Shown here in pieces: positions 23,485-32,776 of a stretch of 64,000 bases of DNA (its first letter is position 1; each line of letters begins with the position of its first letter). The stretch is taken from the NCBI RefSeq assembly GCF_022846655.1, contig NZ_AP025667.1:1773001-1837000 (forward strand). Direction: 5' to 3'. This DNA comes from Streptomyces seoulensis (GTDB lineage: Bacteria > Actinomycetota > Actinomycetes > Streptomycetales > Streptomycetaceae). The position numbers and the translations under genes are program-made. The notes beneath the pieces were generated by a model. The model had not been told where the DNA came from. It saw nothing but the letters and a program-made list of their open reading frames with translations, and made no database searches.

Positions 23485-24258
23485 CTACTCCCAGCGGAAG
23501 AACTTCCCCGCCGCGGCCAGCCCCACGACCGCCCACACCGCGAGGATCGCCAGGTCGCCCCAGGGCATCCCGGCGCCGTGCTGGAGCACGTCCCGCAGGC
23601 CGTCGGAGAGCGCGGAGATCGGCAGCAGCCCGAGGACGTGCTGCCCGGCCGAGCCGAACTTCTCCAGCGGCACGATCACCCCGCCGCCCACCAGCAGCAG
23701 CAGGAAGACCAGGTTGGCCGCGGCCAGCGTCGCCTCCGCCTTCAGGGTGCCCGCCATCAGCAGCCCGAGCCCGGAGAAGGCGGCCGTGCCCAGCACCAGC
23801 AGGAGCAGGACGGCGGCCGGGTTGCCGTGCGGGGACCAGCCGAGCGCGAAGGCGATGACTGTCAGCAGGATCACCTGGAGCACCTCGGTGACCAGCACCG
23901 CGACCGTCTTCGCGGCCATCAGCCCCCAGCGCGGCAGCGGCGAGGAGGCCAGCCGCTTCAGCACGCCGTAGCGCCGCTCGAACCCGGTGGCGATGGCCTG
24001 CCCGGTGAACGCGGTCGACATCACGGCGAGCGCCAGGATGCCGGGGGCGAGGAAGTCGACCGCCTCGCCGGACCCGGTGTCCACGATGTCCACCGAGCTG
24101 AAGAGCACCAGCAGCAGGGTCGGGATGACCACGGTGAGCAGCAACTGCTCGCCGTTGCGCAGCAGCATCCGCGTCTCCAGCGCGGCCTGCGCGGCGATCA
24201 TGCGGGGGAGCGGCGCCGCTCCGGGCCTCGGGGCGTACGTGCCCGGCGCGGTCGTCAT
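23485..24258 (-). CDS. ABC-2 type transporter permease
   Basis: 257-residue membrane protein with six hydrophobic segments and the ABC-2 arrangement. A long extracytoplasmic part (VDIVDTGSGEAVDFLAPGILAL) follows the first segment and GFERRYGVLKRLASSPLPRW is the cytoplasmic coupling loop. It overlaps the ATPase gene by four bases (ATGA), so both are made together as an exporter. The substrate is not evident. The heme A synthase gene follows closely. Confidence 0.9.
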   Translation of the reverse strand: MTTAPGTYAPRPGAAPLPRMIAAQAALETRMLLRNGEQLLLTVVIPTLLLVLFSSVDIVDTGSGEAVDFLAPGILALAVMSTAFTGQAIATGFERRYGVLKRLASSPLPRWGLMAAKTVAVLVTEVLQVILLTVIAFALGWSPHGNPAAVLLLLVLGTAAFSGLGLLMAGTLKAEATLAAANLVFLLLLVGGGVIVPLEKFGSAGQHVLGLLPISALSDGLRDVLQHGAGMPWGDLAILAVWAVVGLAAAGKFFRWE

Positions 24259-25178
24259 GAGCGCAGCTCCTTGCCGGTCAGTTCGAGGAAGACGTCTTCG
24301 AGGGTGTGCCGCTCCACCGAGATCCGGTCCGGCATCACCCCGTGCTGCGCGCACCAGGAGGTCACGGTGGCGAGCAGTTGCGGGTCTATCTTGCCGGTCA
24401 CCCGGTAGCCGCCTGGCGTCAGCTCGTCGGCCGTGCAGTCCGCCGGGAGCGCCTTGAGCAGCGAGGCGACGTCCAGGCCGGGGCGTCCGCCGAAGCGCAG
24501 GGTGTTCTCGGCGCCGTCCCGGCACAGCTCCTCGGGCGAGCCCTGGGCGATGACCCGGCCGCCGTCGATGATCGCGACGTCGTCGGCGAGCTGCTCGGCC
24601 TCGTCCATGTGGTGCGTGGTGAGGATCACCGAGACCCCGTCGGTGCGCAGGTCCCGGACGAGGTCCCAGGTGGCGCGGCGGGCCTGCGGGTCGAGCCCGG
24701 CGGTCGGTTCGTCCAGGAAGACCAGCTCGGGGCGGCCCACGACGGCCATGGCCAGCGCGAGTCGCTGCTGCTGGCCGCCGGACAGCCGCCGGTAGGAGGT
24801 CCGGCCGCAGGAGCCGAGCCCGAGGCGCTCGATCAGGGCGTCCACGTCCAGCGGGTGCGCGTGCAGCTTGGCGACATGGCGCAGCATCTCGTCGGCGCGG
24901 GCGCCGGAGTAGACGCCGCCGGACTGGAGCATCACGCCGACGCGGGGGCGCAGCGCGGCCGAGTCCCGCAGCGGGTCGAGGCCGAGGACGCGCACCGTGC
25001 CGGAGTCCGGCTTCCGGTACCCCTCGCAGGTCTCGACCGTGGTCGTCTTGCCGGCGCCGTTGGGGCCGAGCACGGCGGTCACGCCCTGCCGGGCCTCCAG
25101 GTCGAGGCCGTCCACCGCGGTCTTCTGGCCGTACCGCTTCACCAGGGCCTGGACCTGGACCACGGGGTCACTTCGCAT
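24255..25178 (-). CDS. ABC transporter ATP-binding protein (DrrA-type exporter)
   Basis: 307 residues. Walker A GPNGAGKTT (near 39), ABC signature LSGGQQQRLALA (near 134), Walker B ELVFLDEPTAGLD (near 155) and the switch His in TTHHMDEAE are all intact. A C-terminal extension of about 85 residues is typical of exporters of drugs or lipids. No ribosome binding site precedes the ATG; TAGACT (25187-25192 on this strand) ends eight bases before it, which fits a leaderless message from its own promoter. It lies 31 bases after the acetyltransferase gene. Confidence 0.92.
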   Translation of the reverse strand: MRSDPVVQVQALVKRYGQKTAVDGLDLEARQGVTAVLGPNGAGKTTTVETCEGYRKPDSGTVRVLGLDPLRDSAALRPRVGVMLQSGGVYSGARADEMLRHVAKLHAHPLDVDALIERLGLGSCGRTSYRRLSGGQQQRLALAMAVVGRPELVFLDEPTAGLDPQARRATWDLVRDLRTDGVSVILTTHHMDEAEQLADDVAIIDGGRVIAQGSPEELCRDGAENTLRFGGRPGLDVASLLKALPADCTADELTPGGYRVTGKIDPQLLATVTSWCAQHGVMPDRISVERHTLEDVFLELTGKELRS

Positions 25179-25209: not shown

Positions 25210-26022
25210 TCAGGCGCGGGGGTGCTCGAAATCGGCCTCGCGGGGCCGGTGCAGCGGCAGCCAGCGCTCGGCGTAGGCCACCGCGTCCGCGACCGGGAAC
25301 AGCCGGGCCTCGGCCGCTCCGACCCGCCCGCGCACGACCGGGCGGTCCCGCTCGAAGTCGTGGCCCAGCTCACCGAAGCGGTGGGAGGTGATGGACACCT
25401 CGGTCACCGTCTCCCAGCCGCCGGGGCCGGGCCGGCCGACCGCCACCAGCGGCGCGGGTATCCGGTATTCGGCCAGGTGGAAGCTGGTGCAGGCGTCGTA
25501 GCCCGCGCCGAGCAGCAGCACCCGGGCGCCGAGGCGCTCCAGCCGGGCCAGCGGGCTGTTCTCGCCGAGGCGGCAGTCCGGGGCGTGCCTCTCGGTGATC
25601 TCGGCCGCGCGGGGGCCGAGCGCGGCGAAGGAGGTCTGCGGGTGGGCGCTGCGCAGGGCGCCGGGCCAGGTGCGCACGGTCTCCGGGATCACCCCCACGC
25701 CGCGCGAGGGGGTGGTGCGCGGGTCGTAGGCGGGCATGGTGGCCCGGACCGTCTCCCACCACGCCGGGGGTACCGGGGGCGCCTGCCACAGCTCGGGGTC
25801 GGAGAGGTCGGCGGACTGGGTGGGGACCACCAGGGTGCCGTCCGGGCCGAGGGCGTCGAGCAGTCCCTGGACGGCGGCGACGGCACCGCCGTTCACCCAG
25901 CCGAGGGAACTCAGCGAGGAGTGCGCGAGGAGGATGTCGCCGGGCTTGACACCGAGGTGACGTAGCTGCTGGGCGAGGGTGTCGCGGGTGATCAGGGGGC
26001 CGTTCGGGACGGGGGTCGGCAT
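25210..26022 (-). CDS. AAC(3)-family N-acetyltransferase
   Basis: 270 residues of the aminoglycoside 3-N-acetyltransferase family, which uses acetyl-CoA. Family features are GDILLAHSSLSSLGWVNGG (near 28-46), GTLVVPTQSADLSDP (near 62), SRGVGVIPETVR (near 105) and SAHPQTSFAALG (near 125). Many members are encoded in the chromosomes of sensitive strains and act on unknown amines, so resistance is possible but unproven. An ABC exporter follows on the same strand. Its upstream region holds an iron box shared with sufR. Confidence 0.85.
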   Translation of the reverse strand: MPTPVPNGPLITRDTLAQQLRHLGVKPGDILLAHSSLSSLGWVNGGAVAAVQGLLDALGPDGTLVVPTQSADLSDPELWQAPPVPPAWWETVRATMPAYDPRTTPSRGVGVIPETVRTWPGALRSAHPQTSFAALGPRAAEITERHAPDCRLGENSPLARLERLGARVLLLGAGYDACTSFHLAEYRIPAPLVAVGRPGPGGWETVTEVSITSHRFGELGHDFERDRPVVRGRVGAAEARLFPVADAVAYAERWLPLHRPREADFEHPRA

Positions 26023-26115
26023 GGCGCGGAGTCTGCCCGGCGGGGATCGGTGGCGCCAGCGGTTTTGCCTGGTGAGAGGCGCCGTGCTGATCGCCCGGGA
26101 GATCGTTTCCGCAGG

Positions 26116-26134
26116 TCAGGTTAGGTGCACCTAA
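26116..26134. promoter_or_regulatory. Iron box (DmdR1/IdeR-type operator)
   Basis: TCAGGTTAGGTGCACCTAA matches the Streptomyces iron-box consensus as I know it (TTAGGTTAGGCTCACCTAA) at 16 of 19 positions. It contains a perfect 14-bp palindrome at 26121-26134. It lies in the divergent region between the acetyltransferase and sufR, about 73-91 bases upstream of the sufR start. Confidence 0.75.
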
Positions 26135-26170
26135 GTGACGCAGGGCACCGTCGTTCGGTCCCGGTCCGGC

Positions 26171-26207
26171 TTGTCAGGCCCCGAGGAATTACGCAACAAT
26201 AGCGTTG
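26171..26207 (+). promoter_or_regulatory. sufR promoter with SufR operator CAAC-N6-GTTG
   Basis: TTGTCA (26171-26176) and AACAAT (26195-26200) are separated by 18 bases and would start transcription at about 26207, the GTG of sufR, so the message is leaderless. CAAC-AATAGC-GTTG (26194-26207) is exactly the SufR operator form I recall for Streptomyces avermitilis. It covers the -10 box and the start point, as expected for repression. Confidence 0.75.
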
Positions 26208-26956
26208 TGAAAAACGTCGGCGAGGCTCGGGAGACCCCCACGGGGCCCCAGGAAGAGCTAGCGACCGGTGAGCATTCGACGCGCAACCGGGTCGCGCGGT
26301 CCATCCTGGACCACGGCCCGTCGACCGTCGCCGAACTGGCCGGCCGGCTCGGCCTCACCCAGGCCGCCGTACGACGGCATCTGGACGCGCTGGCCGCCGA
26401 CGACATCGTGCAGGCCCGCGAGCAGCGGGTGTACGGCGCCCGCACCCGCGGCCGCCCCGCCAAGGTCTTCGCCCTGACCGCCTGCGGCCGGGACGCCTTC
26501 GACCAGTCCTACGACCAGCTCGCCGCCGACGCCCTGCGCTGGATCGCCGAGCGCGAGGGCGGGGGAGAGGCCGTCGCGGCCTTCGCCCGCGCCCGTATCG
26601 CCGCCCAGGCCGACGCCTACCGCGCGGCCGTCGAGGGAGTCGAACCCGACCGCCGCGCCGAAGCCCTCGCCAGGGCCTTGACCGCGGACGGGTACGCTGC
26701 TACGGCACGCAGTGCCCCCCTCCCGCAACAGGGTGAGCAGCTCTGCCAGCACCACTGTCCGGTCGCACACGTCGCCGAGCAGTTCCCCCAGCTCTGCGAG
26801 GCGGAGACCGAGTTCTTCGCCGAGCTGCTGGGAACCCACGTCCAGCGACTGGCGACCATCGCCCACGGCGACGGCGTCTGCACGACGTTCATCCCCAAGA
26901 TTTCCAAGTCCGATCAGAGCCACCACGCAAGCACGGCCGGGAGGAACCCCGCATGA
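26207..26956 (+). CDS. sufR: Fe-S cluster-sensing repressor SufR
   Basis: Regulator of the suf operon that represses when it carries an Fe-S cluster. 249 residues from GTG 26207, which sits on the predicted transcription start. A winged helix-turn-helix at about 27-85 ([23 protein letters not shown]) is followed by a helical linker and the cluster ligand region C180-x3-C184-x12-C197, with C225 as a possible fourth ligand. It overlaps sufB by four bases (ATGA), so the repressor is made from the operon it controls, a negative feedback loop. Confidence 0.93.
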
Positions 26957-28374
26957 CGCTCCCCACGGAGACTGCCCACCCCGAACTCGAGGGTCTGGGT
27001 AAGTACGAATACGGCTGGGCCGACTCCGACGTAGCCGGCGCCTCGGCCAAGCGCGGTCTGAGCGAGGCCGTCGTCCGCGACATCTCGGACAAGAAGTCCG
27101 AGCCGGAGTGGATGACCAAGCTCCGCCTCAAGGGCCTGAAGCTGTTCGAGAAGAAGCCCATGCCCAACTGGGGCTCCGACCTCTCGGGCATCGACTTCGA
27201 CAACATCAAGTACTTCGTGCGCTCCACGGAGAAGCAGGCGGAGTCCTGGGAGGACCTGCCCGAGGACATCAAGAACACCTACGACAAGCTGGGCATCCCC
27301 GAGGCCGAGAAGCAGCGCCTCGTCGCCGGTGTCGCCGCCCAGTACGAGTCGGAGGTCGTCTACCACCAGATCCGCGAGGACCTGGAGGAGCAGGGCGTCA
27401 TCTTCCTGGACACCGACACCGCCCTGAAGGAGCACCCCGAGCTCTTCAAGGAGTACTTCGGCACGGTCATCCCGGTCGGCGACAACAAGTTCGCGTCGCT
27501 GAACACGGCCGTGTGGTCCGGCGGCTCCTTCATCTACGTGCCGAAGGGCGTGCACGTGGAGATCCCGCTCCAGGCCTACTTCCGGATCAACACCGAGAAC
27601 ATGGGCCAGTTCGAGCGGACGCTGATCATCGTCGACGAGGACGCCTACGTCCACTACGTCGAGGGCTGCACCGCGCCGATCTACAAGTCGGACTCGCTGC
27701 ACTCCGCGGTCGTCGAGATCATCGTCAAGAAGGGCGCCCGCTGCCGTTACACGACCATCCAGAACTGGTCGAACAACGTCTACAACCTGGTCACCAAGCG
27801 CGCCGTCGCCTACGAGGGCGCGACCATGGAGTGGGTCGACGGCAACATCGGCTCCAAGGTGACCATGAAGTACCCGGCCGTCTACCTGATGGGCGAGCAC
27901 GCCAAGGGCGAGACCCTCTCCATCGCCTTCGCGGGCGAGGGTCAGCACCAGGACGCCGGCGCCAAGATGGTCCACATGGCTCCGAACACGTCGTCCAACA
28001 TCGTCTCCAAGTCGGTGGCGCGCGGCGGCGGCCGTACCTCCTACCGCGGTCTCATCGAGATCGGCGAGGGCGCGGCCGGATCGAAGTCCAACGTGCTGTG
28101 CGACGCGCTGCTCGTCGACACGATCTCCCGCTCGGACACCTACCCCTACGTCGACGTCCGCGAGGACGACGTCTCCATGGGCCACGAGGCGACCGTCTCC
28201 AAGGTCTCCGAGGACCAGCTCTTCTACCTGATGAGCCGCGGCCTCTCCGAGGACGAGGCGATGGCGATGATCGTGCGCGGCTTCGTCGAGCCCATCGCCA
28301 AGGAGCTGCCCATGGAGTACGCGCTGGAGCTCAACCGGCTGATCGAGCTGCAGATGGAGGGCGCGGTCGGCTGA
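26953..28374 (+). CDS. sufB: Fe-S cluster assembly scaffold SufB
   Basis: Scaffold subunit of the SufBCD complex on which Fe-S clusters are built. 473 residues. The beta-helix core includes [23 protein letters not shown] and [13 protein letters not shown]; the last segment, [19 protein letters not shown], contains residues of the SufB-SufD interface region. The start overlaps the sufR stop codon. sufD follows after 60 bases. Confidence 0.97.
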
Positions 28375-28434
28375 CCCGCCGTCCCGCACCTCGTCAAGCC
28401 ACATACGCACAGGAAAGCGAGCACTACGACAGCC

Positions 28435-29616
28435 ATGGCTGAGGCTCAGAACATCCCCGTGGGGTCGACCACCGCGGGCTCGATCGCGGTCGCCGCCGAG
28501 TCGACCGTCGCCACGCGCATGAGCGCGCCCCCCTCCTTCGACGTCGCGGACTTCCCCGTCCCGCACGGCCGTGAGGAGGAGTGGCGGTTCACCCCGCTGG
28601 AGCGCCTGCGCGGCCTGCACGACGGCACCGCGGTCGCCAGCGAGGGCCTGAAGGTCGTCGTCGAGGCCCCCGAGGGCGTCACCGTCGAGAACGTCGGCCG
28701 TGACGACGCCCGGCTCGGCAAGGCCGGCACCCCGGTGGACCGCGTCGCCGCCCAGGCGTACTCCGCCTTCGAGCAGGCGTCGGTCGTCACCGTCCCCAAG
28801 GACACCGTCCTCACCGAGCCGATCCGCATCGCGGTGCACGGCGAGGGCGGCACCGCCTTCGGCCACCAGGTGATCGAGCTCGGCGCCTTCGCCGAGGCCC
28901 TCGTCGTCATCGACCACAGCGGTGACGCCGTGCTCGCCGCCAACGTCGACTACGTGCTCGGCGACGGCGCCAAGCTGACCGTCGTCTCCGTCCAGGACTG
29001 GGACGACAAGGCCGTGCACGTGGCCCAGCACAACGCCCTCGTCGGCCGCGACGCCTCCTTCAAGTCCGTGGTCGTCACCTTCGGCGGCGACGTCGTCCGC
29101 CTGCACCCGCGCGTCAGCTACGCGGGCCCCGGCGGCGAGGCCGAGCTGTTCGGCCTGTACTTCACGGACGCCGGCCAGCACCAGGAGCACCGCCTCCTGG
29201 TCGACCACAACACCCCGCACTGCCGGTCCCACGTCGTCTACAAGGGCGCGCTCCAGGGCGAGGGCGCGCACGCGGTCTGGATCGGTGACGTGCTCATCGA
29301 GGCCAAGGCCGAGGGCACCGACACCTACGAGATGAACCGCAACCTCGTCCTCACCGACGGCTCCCGCGTCGACTCGGTCCCCAACCTGGAGATCGAGACC
29401 GGCGAGATCGTCGGCGCCGGCCACGCCTCCACCACCGGCCGCTTCGACGACGAGCAGCTCTTCTACCTGATGGCCCGCGGCATCCCGGAGCACGAGGCCC
29501 GCCGTCTGGTGGTCCGCGGCTTCTTCGCCGAGCTGGTCCAGCAGATCGGTGTCCCGGACATCGAGGAGCGCCTGCTCACCAAGATCGAGGAGGAGCTGGA
29601 GGCCGCGGTCGCATGA
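28435..29616 (+). CDS. sufD: Fe-S cluster assembly protein SufD
   Basis: Partner of SufB in the SufBCD scaffold. 393 residues, with an N-terminal helical part and a C-terminal beta-helix homologous to SufB (PHCRSHVVYKGAL, then TGRFDDEQLFYLMARGI). It overlaps the Rieske gene by four bases. The first about 35 residues are low in complexity (repeated Ala, Thr, Ser). Confidence 0.96.
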   Translation: MAEAQNIPVGSTTAGSIAVAAESTVATRMSAPPSFDVADFPVPHGREEEWRFTPLERLRGLHDGTAVASEGLKVVVEAPEGVTVENVGRDDARLGKAGTPVDRVAAQAYSAFEQASVVTVPKDTVLTEPIRIAVHGEGGTAFGHQVIELGAFAEALVVIDHSGDAVLAANVDYVLGDGAKLTVVSVQDWDDKAVHVAQHNALVGRDASFKSVVVTFGGDVVRLHPRVSYAGPGGEAELFGLYFTDAGQHQEHRLLVDHNTPHCRSHVVYKGALQGEGAHAVWIGDVLIEAKAEGTDTYEMNRNLVLTDGSRVDSVPNLEIETGEIVGAGHASTTGRFDDEQLFYLMARGIPEHEARRLVVRGFFAELVQQIGVPDIEERLLTKIEEELEAAVA

Positions 29617-29936
29617 CGACGACCTTCCAGCGCGCCTGCGGACTGAGCGAGCTGTCGGAGGACACCCCCAAGCGGGTGGAACTCGACGGCACGCCGGTCT
29701 CGGTCGTGAAGACCGAAGGGGAGGTGTACGCGATCTACGACATCTGCTCGCACGCGAACGTCTCCCTCTCCGAGGGCGAAGTGGAGGACGGGCAGATCGA
29801 GTGCTGGCTGCACGGCTCCTGCTTCGACCTCCGTTCCGGCAAGCCGTCCGGCCCGCCCGCGACGCGCCCCGTCCCCGTATACCCCGTAAAGATCGAAGGG
29901 GACGACGTGCTCGTCTCCCTCACCCAGGAGTCCTGA
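29613..29936 (+). CDS. Rieske [2Fe-2S] ferredoxin of the suf operon
   Basis: 107-residue soluble protein with the complete Rieske ligand set C45-x-H47 and C64-x2-H67 (CSH and CWLH). It resembles the small ferredoxin subunits of aromatic dioxygenases but is fixed inside the suf operon of actinobacteria, between sufD and sufC. An electron-transfer role in cluster assembly is an inference from position only. It overlaps sufD by four bases and precedes sufC by seven. Confidence 0.93.
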   Translation: MTTTFQRACGLSELSEDTPKRVELDGTPVSVVKTEGEVYAIYDICSHANVSLSEGEVEDGQIECWLHGSCFDLRSGKPSGPPATRPVPVYPVKIEGDDVLVSLTQES

Positions 29937-29943
29937 GGCACCC

Positions 29944-30704
<761 letters not shown>

Positions 30705-30708
<4 letters not shown>

Positions 30709-31961
30709 CACAGCTGCCGGGCCTCCTCGACACCGAGGCGCTGCGCAAGGACTTCCCGATCCTGGACCGCCAGGTCCACGACGGGCGCAAGCTCGTATAC
30801 CTGGACAACGCGGCGACCTCGCAGAAGCCGCGCCAGGTGCTGGACGCCTTGAGCGAGTACTACGAGCGCTACAACGCCAATGTCCACCGCGGCGTGCACG
30901 TCCTCGCCGAGGAGGCCACGGCGCTGTACGAGGGCGCGCGTGACAAGGTCGCCGACTTCATCAACGCGCCCAGCCGCGACGAGGTGATCTTCACCAAGAA
31001 CGCCTCCGAGTCGCTCAACCTCGTGGCCAACATGCTGGGCTGGGCCGACGAGCCCTACCGCGTGGACCACGAGACCGAGATCGTCATCACGGAGATGGAG
31101 CACCACTCCAACATCGTGCCGTGGCAGCTCCTCGCGCAGCGCACCGGCGCGAAGCTGAAGTGGTTCGGTCTCACCGACGACGGCCGTCTCGACCTGTCCA
31201 ACATCGACGAGATCATCACCGAGAAGACGAAGATCGTCTCCTTCGTGCTGGTCTCCAACATCCTGGGCACGGTCAACCCGGTCGAGGCGATCGTGCGCCG
31301 CGCCCAGGAGGTCGGCGCGCTCGTCTGCATCGACGCCTCCCAGGCCGCGCCGCACATGCCGCTGGACGTGCAGGCGCTCGGCGCCGACTTCGTGGCCTTC
31401 ACCGGCCACAAGATGTGCGGTCCGACCGGCATCGGTGTGCTCTGGGGCCGCCAGGAGCTCCTGGAGGACCTGCCTCCGTTCCTCGGCGGCGGCGAGATGA
31501 TCGAGACGGTGTCGATGCACTCCTCGACCTACGCGCCCGCGCCGCACAAGTTCGAGGCGGGCACGCCCCCGATCGCCCAGGCGGTCGGTCTCGGTGCCGC
31601 CATCGACTACCTGAACTCGATCGGCATGGACAAGATCCTCGCCCACGAGCACGCGCTCACCGAGTACGCGGTGAAGCGGCTGGGCGAGGTCCCCGACCTG
31701 CGCATCATCGGCCCCTCCACGGCCGAGGACCGCGGCGCGGCGATCTCCTTCACCCTCGGCGACATCCACCCGCACGACGTGGGCCAGGTCCTCGACGAGC
31801 AGGGCATCGCGGTCCGCGTCGGCCACCACTGCGCGCGGCCCGTCTGCCTGCGGTACGGAATTCCGGCGACCACCCGGGCGTCGTTCTATCTGTACTCCAC
31901 GCCCGCCGAGGTCGACGCACTGGTCGAGGGGCTGGAGCACGTACGGAACTTCTTCGGCTGA
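30705..31961 (+). CDS. sufS: Cysteine desulfurase SufS
   Basis: PLP enzyme that takes sulfur from cysteine and passes it to SufU. 418 residues from GTG 30705, which overlaps sufC. PLP lysine K236 is in TGHKMCGP and the persulfide cysteine C376 is in RVGHHCARP, on the short loop typical of group II desulfurases. sufU follows after 18 bases. Confidence 0.96.
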
Positions 31962-31979
31962 GAGGCGTGGTCTGACACC

Positions 31980-32447
31980 GTGAAGCTGGATTCGATGTAC
32001 CAGGAAGTCATCCTGGACCACTACAAGAACCCGCACGGGCGTGGTCTGAGGGACGGCGACGCCGAGGTGCACCACGTGAACCCGACGTGCGGCGACGAGA
32101 TCACCCTCCGGGTGAGGTACGACGGCACGAAGGTCGCGGACGTCTCGTACGAGGGCCAGGGCTGTTCCATCAGCCAGGCCTCGGCGTCCGTGCTGAACGA
32201 ACTGCTGGTGGGCAAGGACCTGCCCGAGGCACAGAAGATCCAGGAGACCTTCCTGGAGCTGATGCAGTCCAAGGGCCGGATCGAGCCCGACGACGCGATG
32301 GAGGAGGTGCTGGAGGACGCGGTCGCGTTCGCCGGCGTCTCCAAGTACCCCGCGCGGGTCAAGTGCGCCCTCCTGAGCTGGATGGCGTGGAAGGACGCGA
32401 CGGCCCAGGCACTGGGTGACGCCGACGTCGAAAGGAAGACGGCATGA
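31980..32447 (+). CDS. sufU: SufU zinc-dependent sulfurtransferase
   Basis: Accepts sulfur from SufS and passes it to SufB. 155 residues from GTG 31980. The zinc/persulfide cysteines C37, C62 and C129, with D39, are present, as is the insertion that distinguishes SufU from the scaffold IscU. It overlaps the next gene by four bases. Confidence 0.95.
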   Translation: MKLDSMYQEVILDHYKNPHGRGLRDGDAEVHHVNPTCGDEITLRVRYDGTKVADVSYEGQGCSISQASASVLNELLVGKDLPEAQKIQETFLELMQSKGRIEPDDAMEEVLEDAVAFAGVSKYPARVKCALLSWMAWKDATAQALGDADVERKTA

Positions 32448-32776
32448 CCGACACCGCTGAGATGAAGCCGGCCTCGGAGGAGGAACTCCGCGAGGCCCTG
32501 ATGGACGTCGTCGACCCCGAGCTGGGCATCGACGTCGTCAACCTCGGCCTGATCTACGGCATCCACATCGACGACTCCAACGTCTGCACGCTCGACATGA
32601 CGCTGACCTCCGCGGCCTGCCCGCTGACGGACGTCATCGAGGACCAGGCCAAGTCCGTCACCGACGGCCTGGTCAGCGAGCTGCGCATCAACTGGGTCTG
32701 GATGCCGCCGTGGGGCCCGGACAAGATCACCGACGACGGCCGCGAGCAGTTGCGGGCGCTGGGCTTCAACGTCTGA
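32444..32776 (+). CDS. MIP18/DUF59-type Fe-S assembly factor (SufT-like)
   Basis: 110 residues of the MIP18 family, which help mature Fe-S proteins. The hallmark DPELGIDVVNLGLIYGI (near 25-41) and the conserved Cys in LTSAACPLTDVI (near 59) are visible, with the motif WVWMPPWGPDKIT near the end. Last gene of the suf operon, overlapping sufU by four bases and followed by a strong terminator. Confidence 0.92.
   Translation: MTDTAEMKPASEEELREALMDVVDPELGIDVVNLGLIYGIHIDDSNVCTLDMTLTSAACPLTDVIEDQAKSVTDGLVSELRINWVWMPPWGPDKITDDGREQLRALGFNV

Follow-up and report, generated by a model that had tools for sequence, protein, structure and literature searches.

The suf locus and the element upstream of sufR

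The window, the whole 64,000-nucleotide stretch of the Streptomyces seoulensis genome that was analysed (contig NZ_AP025667.1, positions 1,773,001 to 1,837,000), carries a suf operon headed by sufR and, upstream of sufR, an iron-box-like 19-mer, TCAGGTTAGGTGCACCTAA (26116..26134, + strand). Within the 19-mer lies a predicted half-site for the iron regulator DmdR1/IdeR, TTAGG-N4-CCTAA (26121..26134, no strand assigned), in which two CCTAA repeats are separated by a 4-bp spacer. The conserved element at this place is the 14-bp, one-dimer half-site, and not the 19-bp box. As the original prediction had stated, the site stands between sufR, whose GTG start is at 26207, and a divergent acetyltransferase gene of the AAC(3) family (25210..26022, - strand), whose score falls short of the curated NCBIfam cut-offs for AAC(3). 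The sufR gene (26207..26956, + strand) encodes a SufR-type repressor of 249 amino acids that matches TIGR02702 SufR_cyano with an E value of 6e-25, below the curated cut-off.

The sufR promoter was placed by comparison with S. avermitilis, in which the transcription start of sufR is the last G of CAAC-N6-GTTG and the -10 element is AACAAT (PMC11995493; here and below, published work is cited from excerpts of the papers). The window has the same -10 element (26195..26200, + strand) and the same SufR operator, CAAC-N6-GTTG (26194..26207, + strand), lying over the -10 and the start, and the sufR start was accordingly placed at 26207, so that the last G of the operator is both the transcription start and the first base of the GTG codon of a leaderless gene. 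This arrangement was found in 80/80 loci of our main Streptomyces set, the best 80 of 556 confirmed relatives. A putative -35-like element, TTGTCA (26171..26176, + strand), is separated from the -10 by 18 bp, and TTGyC is common at this place in relatives. Relative to the start, the half-site occupies -86 to -73 (centre -79.5), the 19-mer -91 to -73, and the -10 element -12 to -7; the half-site is thus upstream of both the sufR promoter and the SufR operator, with the latter about 60 bp away. A putative Crp-like motif, GTGACGCAGGGCAC (26135..26148, + strand), abuts the half-site.

Downstream of sufR, the suf genes extend over 26953..32776 on the + strand. They were recognised by their Pfam domains, and the gene letters were given by domain and order: sufB (26953-28374), sufD (28435-29616), a Rieske ferredoxin gene (29613-29936), sufC (29944-30708), sufS (30705-31961), sufU (31980-32447) and a FeS_assembly_P gene (32444-32776), all on the + strand. 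Beyond the acetyltransferase gene lies a gene for an ABC-transporter ATPase (24255..25178, - strand), which is a divergent neighbour of sufR in other families too.

A half-site rather than a full iron box

The site had been described as an iron box matching the Streptomyces consensus at 16 of 19 positions and containing a perfect 14-bp palindrome. Both counts were reproduced: TCAGGTTAGGTGCACCTAA has 3 mismatches to TTAGGTTAGGCTCACCTAA, and inspection of the sequence placed the palindrome at 26121-26134. With up to 3 mismatches, TTAGGTTAGGCTCACCTAA had one match in the window, and 0/100 dinucleotide shuffles had any. A search of the window with the symmetric consensus TTAGGTTAGGCTAACCTAA, also allowing up to 3 mismatches, gave no match, because the 19-mer has 4 mismatches to it. 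A full 19-bp box (TTAGGTTAGSCTAACCTAA, four CCTAA repeats) holds two IdeR dimers, one on repeats 1 and 3 and the other on repeats 2 and 4 (PMC8464063). The window site does not have this form, since repeats 2 and 4 agree at 9/9 bases and repeats 1 and 3 at 5/9 (TCAGG and TGCA); with such second-dimer repeats and 4 mismatches to the symmetric consensus, a full box in this genome was ruled out. The window site has instead the form of the IdeR half-site, TTAGGTGCACCTAA, exactly, with inverted CCTAA repeats and a 4-bp spacer in the wording of PMC10317159. The IdeR half-site is a one-dimer site that was bound in vitro with a dissociation constant (KD) of 78 nM (PMC8464063). Among relatives, the 5' TCAGG of the 19-mer varies (TCAGA, TCACC, TCGGA and others), and the 14-bp half-site is the conserved part. 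Of the claim of an iron box, therefore, the DtxR-family site at suf stands and the full 19-bp box does not. We also tried by eye to read the palindrome as a sigma-type promoter on either strand, which was inconsistent across species.

The genome of the window has one DtxR-family protein by PF02742, an IdeR-like protein of 230 amino acids with the SH3 domain present, whose nearest PDB entry is M. tuberculosis IdeR (1fx7). Its sequence has S37, P39, T40 and Q43, which are named as DNA-contact residues of IdeR (PMC10317159). The site very probably belongs to a DtxR-family regulator (DmdR1/IdeR), and it would probably be taken as a half-site by one dimer.

Conservation among relatives and occurrence at iron genes

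The original prediction had staked the site on its conservation in related suf regions, and such conservation, above background, was found. In the 80-locus set, the core upstream of sufR was exact in 77/80 loci, with 1 mismatch in 2/80 and 2 mismatches in 1/80. A larger set of 101 Streptomyces loci, consisting of the window, the 80-locus set and 20 divergent loci picked from the low-identity end, had the exact half-site in 87/101 sufR upstream regions; in a group of 30 loci (L087-L116, the locus of the window among them), it was exact in 29. A composite of half-site, GTGAY, 50-70 bases and SufR box was present exactly in 285/392 Streptomyces genomes, and the reversed-control columns shown held none. 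By eye, the matches listed span 86 or 87 bases, though the pattern tolerated a range of 21 bp. A box with at most 6 mismatches to TWAGGTWAGSCTWACCTWA was found in 101/101 Streptomyces loci and in 18/20 loci of other Streptomycetaceae genera; in families outside Streptomyces, given here by code, the figures were 32/34 anchored loci (of 36 fetched) in f17, 20/20 in f19 and 5/5 in f13. Elsewhere in the class sample, in which a few start anchors are off, parts of f26, f4, f33 and f3 have a box around -46 to -56, and no supported box match was found in f9, f14, f18, f20, f25, f31 and others. In f26, f4 and f33 (L217, L222, L268, L303, L301), we noted an element of the type TAAGGG-N3-CCTTGCTT near -51, over the sufR -35, with weak support in several of these loci; that position would suit repression.

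The same sequence recurs in the rest of the genome, a single contig of 6.54 Mb. With up to 3 mismatches, TTAGGTTAGGCTCACCTAA matched 6 distinct places and its reversed pattern none, and the five places other than suf adjoin a gene for a DesA-type decarboxylase, a SIP gene, a ferritin gene, a DUF2470 gene and a Suc_Fer-like gene. The exact half-site pattern occurred 490 times in 61 Streptomyces genomes versus 58 times when reversed, with all 61 genomes above their own control, and 6 times in the genome of the window versus 0 in the control. Five of these six adjoin a gene for a DesA-type decarboxylase, a DoxX gene, sufR, a SIP gene and a ferrochelatase gene. The sixth (L122), TTAGGTATGCCTAA at G000:C1:6014432-6014445, lies past the 3' end of a gene that we take to be tsaE-like.

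Two of these genes were followed in relatives (L361-L420), with 29 of 30 loci scored and 1 skipped in each set. Upstream of doxX, the half-site was exact in 19/29 loci and had at most one mismatch in 26/29 (0 and 2 of 580 shuffles, respectively); upstream of the ferrochelatase gene, it was exact in 7/29 and within one mismatch in 10/29 (0/580 shuffles). SCO2350, the S. coelicolor counterpart of doxX, is a published predicted target of DmdR1 (PMC12161575). Unlike at suf, the distance of the half-site from the gene varies at doxX and at ferrochelatase.

Spacing between the half-site and sufR

At suf, the distance is fixed within Streptomyces and changes by steps outside it. The exact half-site begins at -86 in 64 loci and at -85 in 13 loci of the 80-locus set. 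In f17, the box starts at -91/-90 in 14 loci and at -80/-79 in 18, in f19 at -90/-89 in 6 loci and at -78 in 14, and in f13 between -91 and -87; no box start in these three families falls between -86 and -81 (0/57). On a quick tree of SufR (56 rows), the two spacings require at least three changes, each of 10-12 bp. Outside this tree, the start of the core lies between -89 and -85 in 18/20 loci of other Streptomycetaceae genera and at -74 in 2/20, and a core-like sequence with 2-3 mismatches starts in f28 at -76/-75 in 4/5 loci and at -97 in the remaining one, about two turns farther. The f28 sequences (L272, L284, L290, L293, L308) read TTAGGG-N3-CCTTC and then CGTGA in four loci, with a variant in the -97 locus. 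Spacing shifts of whole helical turns are what would be expected of a protein that has to face the promoter, and the sequences give moderate evidence for helical phasing of the site relative to the sufR start.

Alternative explanations of the site

The main rival to activation, which we consider rather unlikely, is that iron-loaded DmdR1 sits beside the Crp-like site and either shuts that activator out or stabilises a complex that represses, with less suf expression at high iron as the outcome. The neighbouring sequence lends itself to this view, as it fits GTGN6GNCAC, the Crp motif of S. coelicolor quoted in PMC10033298, begins at 26135, one base past the half-site, and moves along with it. 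GTGA follows straight after the box in 101/101 Streptomyces, 20/20 f19 and 30/32 f17 loci; among 20 loci from other Streptomycetaceae genera, it adjoins the core in 13 and comes after one base in 6 (together 19/20) and after five in 1, and by a stricter frame it stands right after the box in 12/18. In the 80-locus set, the Crp-like motif is exact in 58/80 loci and within one mismatch in 80/80, compared with 0.3% and 5% of shuffles. The description of DmdR1 with Fe(II) as co-repressor (PMC12161575) and a network model of C. pseudotuberculosis in which DtxR controls sufR negatively (PMC6701010) point in the same direction. However, a good box stands equally far from sufR in f13, where GTGA is found in 0/5 loci, so the box is independent of the Crp-like site, and f9 has the exact Crp-like motif without an iron box in 3/5 loci; the two elements are therefore separable. 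The position of the site also differs from that described for repressed IdeR targets, in which the box lies over the -10 or the start, activation being described from upstream boxes (PMC10317159). At -91 to -73 the suf box is off both, and repression by occlusion is therefore unlikely. The suggestion that the iron repressor controls suf on top of SufR can thus be kept in part: since a DtxR-family site is conserved in related suf regions, it is probably a second input, though hardly one that works by occluding the promoter.

It is improbable that the site mainly serves the divergent gene (AAC(3)-family here, ABC ATPase elsewhere) or a second upstream promoter rather than the mapped sufR promoter. 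The site does sit between divergent genes, with 93 bp from the 19-mer to the acetyltransferase start, and TGATCGATCAAAGATCGTTTCCGCAGG to its left could be the promoter in question. Many Streptomyces share this conserved block (about 26080-26115; L007-L086); in the window, the palindrome within it is degenerate. The acetyltransferase gene was found beside suf by tblastn in 71/80 loci of the 80-locus set at E<=1e-5 and in 69/80 at 1e-10, some of the matches being partial. None of the 57 loci from other families, most of them inspected over about 1.4 kb upstream, gave a match. The nine loci of the 80-locus set without a match (11 at 1e-10) all keep the exact half-site. The acetyltransferase start ranges from 160 to 206 bp from sufR (39 of the 71 matched loci measured), whereas the start of the half-site shifts by 1 bp, being at -86/-85 in all 77 loci with the exact form; in f17 and f19, the ABC ATPase gene is 0.14 to >1.2 kb from sufR or was not found nearby. 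The acetyltransferase gene was rejected as main target, as conservation of the site is independent of it. Given the fixed, phased spacing to sufR whatever the divergent neighbour, the main target of the site is likely to be suf and not the neighbour. The promoter region had been called shared with the acetyltransferase; the site does lie between the two genes, but 'shared' is a weak reading because conservation does not track the acetyltransferase.

We also regard it as quite improbable that a different regulator uses the conserved element as its operator and that the element only looks like an iron box. It is true that 72/80 loci differ from the DtxR-type 19-bp consensus at 4-6 positions, and that the conserved stretch runs on into GTGAY...GCACC. 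On the other hand, the same core occurs at iron genes genome-wide, 19-bp boxes with 1-2 mismatches stand at the same position in parts of f13, f17 and Streptomyces, and doxX, a predicted kind of DmdR1 target, has the exact half-site in the 19/29 loci given above. Chance resemblance in this genome, for which one could cite a single, AT-rich palindromic site with 4 mismatches to the symmetric consensus, was rejected and is practically excluded by the shuffles (0/100), the reversed controls (0) and the conservation, with the composite in 285/392 genomes.

Proposed model and its standing

Considering all of the above, there is in our estimate an even chance that a DmdR1/IdeR half-site forming an extra regulatory layer upstream of the sufR promoter is, as a whole, the correct explanation of the site. 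For its direction, we infer with slight preference a positive rather than a negative effect on suf. In the plausible model, one iron-loaded DmdR1 dimer would occupy the half-site and, placed on that side of the helix, would help the sufR-suf promoter by contact with RNA polymerase or by displacing a silencer. With clusters in good supply, SufR would repress at the -10 and the start, so that suf expression would peak in cells that have iron but too few clusters. A third input, helped or hindered by DmdR1, may come from the abutting Crp-like site. DtxR has been found to activate C. diphtheriae ftn from upstream sites (PMC13001254). We tentatively extend the model to propose that, in Streptomyces and the related families, the phased half-site is an iron-dependent activator input which forms an AND gate with SufR, so that clusters would be made only if iron is at hand and clusters are wanting. 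Half-sites at suf, doxX and ferrochelatase may then exemplify a general class of DmdR1 targets that has been overlooked because 19-bp matrices miss it.

Several points weigh against this proposal. Activated IdeR genes tend to carry several boxes (PMC10317159) and suf has one site, with a single match in the window at up to 3 mismatches and a single exact half-site in the same stretch. The sufficient ftn site adjoins the -35 (PMC13001254), and the suf site is farther up. In mycobacteria, suf rises at low iron (PMC2975660, PMC6034842), a response that a negative role, or SufR by itself, could explain. The exact composite is absent from 107/392 Streptomyces genomes, and the core has 2 mismatches in 10/20 divergent Streptomyces, six of which have, at the same place, the symmetric 19-bp form TCAGGTAAGCCTTACCTGA, with 2 mismatches to the DtxR-type consensus. 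Many of the other families sampled across the class lack the box or have it displaced or weak. In the genome of the window, one of the six exact half-sites (L122) has no iron gene seen alongside, and with one mismatch allowed there is no excess of half-sites (13 versus 15 in the control), so that exact half-sites alone carry weight. Finally, about three independent changes of spacing on the tree make a small sample, for which reason the evidence for phasing was graded no higher.

Relation to known systems

The closest parallel is the IdeR half-site of Saccharopolyspora erythraea (PMC8464063, PMC10317159), a site type published as bound by one IdeR dimer, which the suf site resembles in its poor partner repeats. 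The natural half-site of S. erythraea is at nuo, whereas the Streptomyces one is at suf, also at doxX and partly at ferrochelatase, has a fixed, phased spacing at suf, and is a candidate predicted from sequence. In Corynebacterium, a DtxR-family site at a suf operon that begins with sufR is likewise described, in the prediction for C. diphtheriae DIP1288-1296 made in 2004 (PMC524172) and in the C. pseudotuberculosis model (PMC6701010); a half-site claim was not found in the excerpts of these papers, and the Streptomyces site differs in its half-site form and in lying a long way upstream of a leaderless promoter. The DmdR1 regulon of S. coelicolor (PMC12161575) involves the same regulator family and box. 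Its listed kinds of target (the desferrioxamine locus, SIPs, Bfr/Bfd, DoxX and a thioredoxin-like ferredoxin) have counterparts here in boxes at genes of the same kind, likened by kind and not by orthology, and suf is unnamed in the excerpt. The S. avermitilis sufRBDCSU operator of SufR (Cheng 2020, quoted in PMC11995493) corresponds to CAAC-N6-GTTG over the -10 and start in the window; it is an element separate from the iron half-site, which is additional and about 60 bp upstream. The ferritin genes activated by DtxR or IdeR, C. diphtheriae ftn (PMC13001254) and M. tuberculosis bfrB (PMC10317159), share with suf the position of the boxes upstream of the promoter and off the -10. Those genes have three or four boxes, one of them by or over the -35, whereas suf here has one half-site farther up, with a proposed activating role.

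A review of IdeR lists Fe-S cluster assembly among IdeR targets (PMC10317159), and, by word count, nothing that starts with 'suf' stands in the main text of the C. glutamicum DtxR paper (PMC1382209). Control of suf by DtxR or IdeR as such is not new. A 2018 study of S. avermitilis IdeR by Cheng reportedly lists Fe-S assembly in its abstract among the IdeR-controlled operons. If so, IdeR control of a Streptomyces suf operon has already been shown, and the novelty left would be the form of the half-site and its phasing. Within the literature searched, three features appear to be new: the half-site as a conserved natural element in Streptomyces, the phasing of its spacing, and the motif that accompanies it.

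These features also bear on how iron regulons are read in the genus. A strict 19-bp matrix would, by inference, miss most Streptomyces suf sites, and if the half-site reading is true, DmdR1 regulons drawn from such matrices are incomplete. The 2023 review of IdeR considered that the occurrence of half-sites in other species, and the role of IdeR there, remain to be investigated (PMC10317159); conserved natural half-site candidates in Streptomyces, including the one before suf with its fixed, phased geometry, make that question directly testable in S. coelicolor or S. avermitilis.
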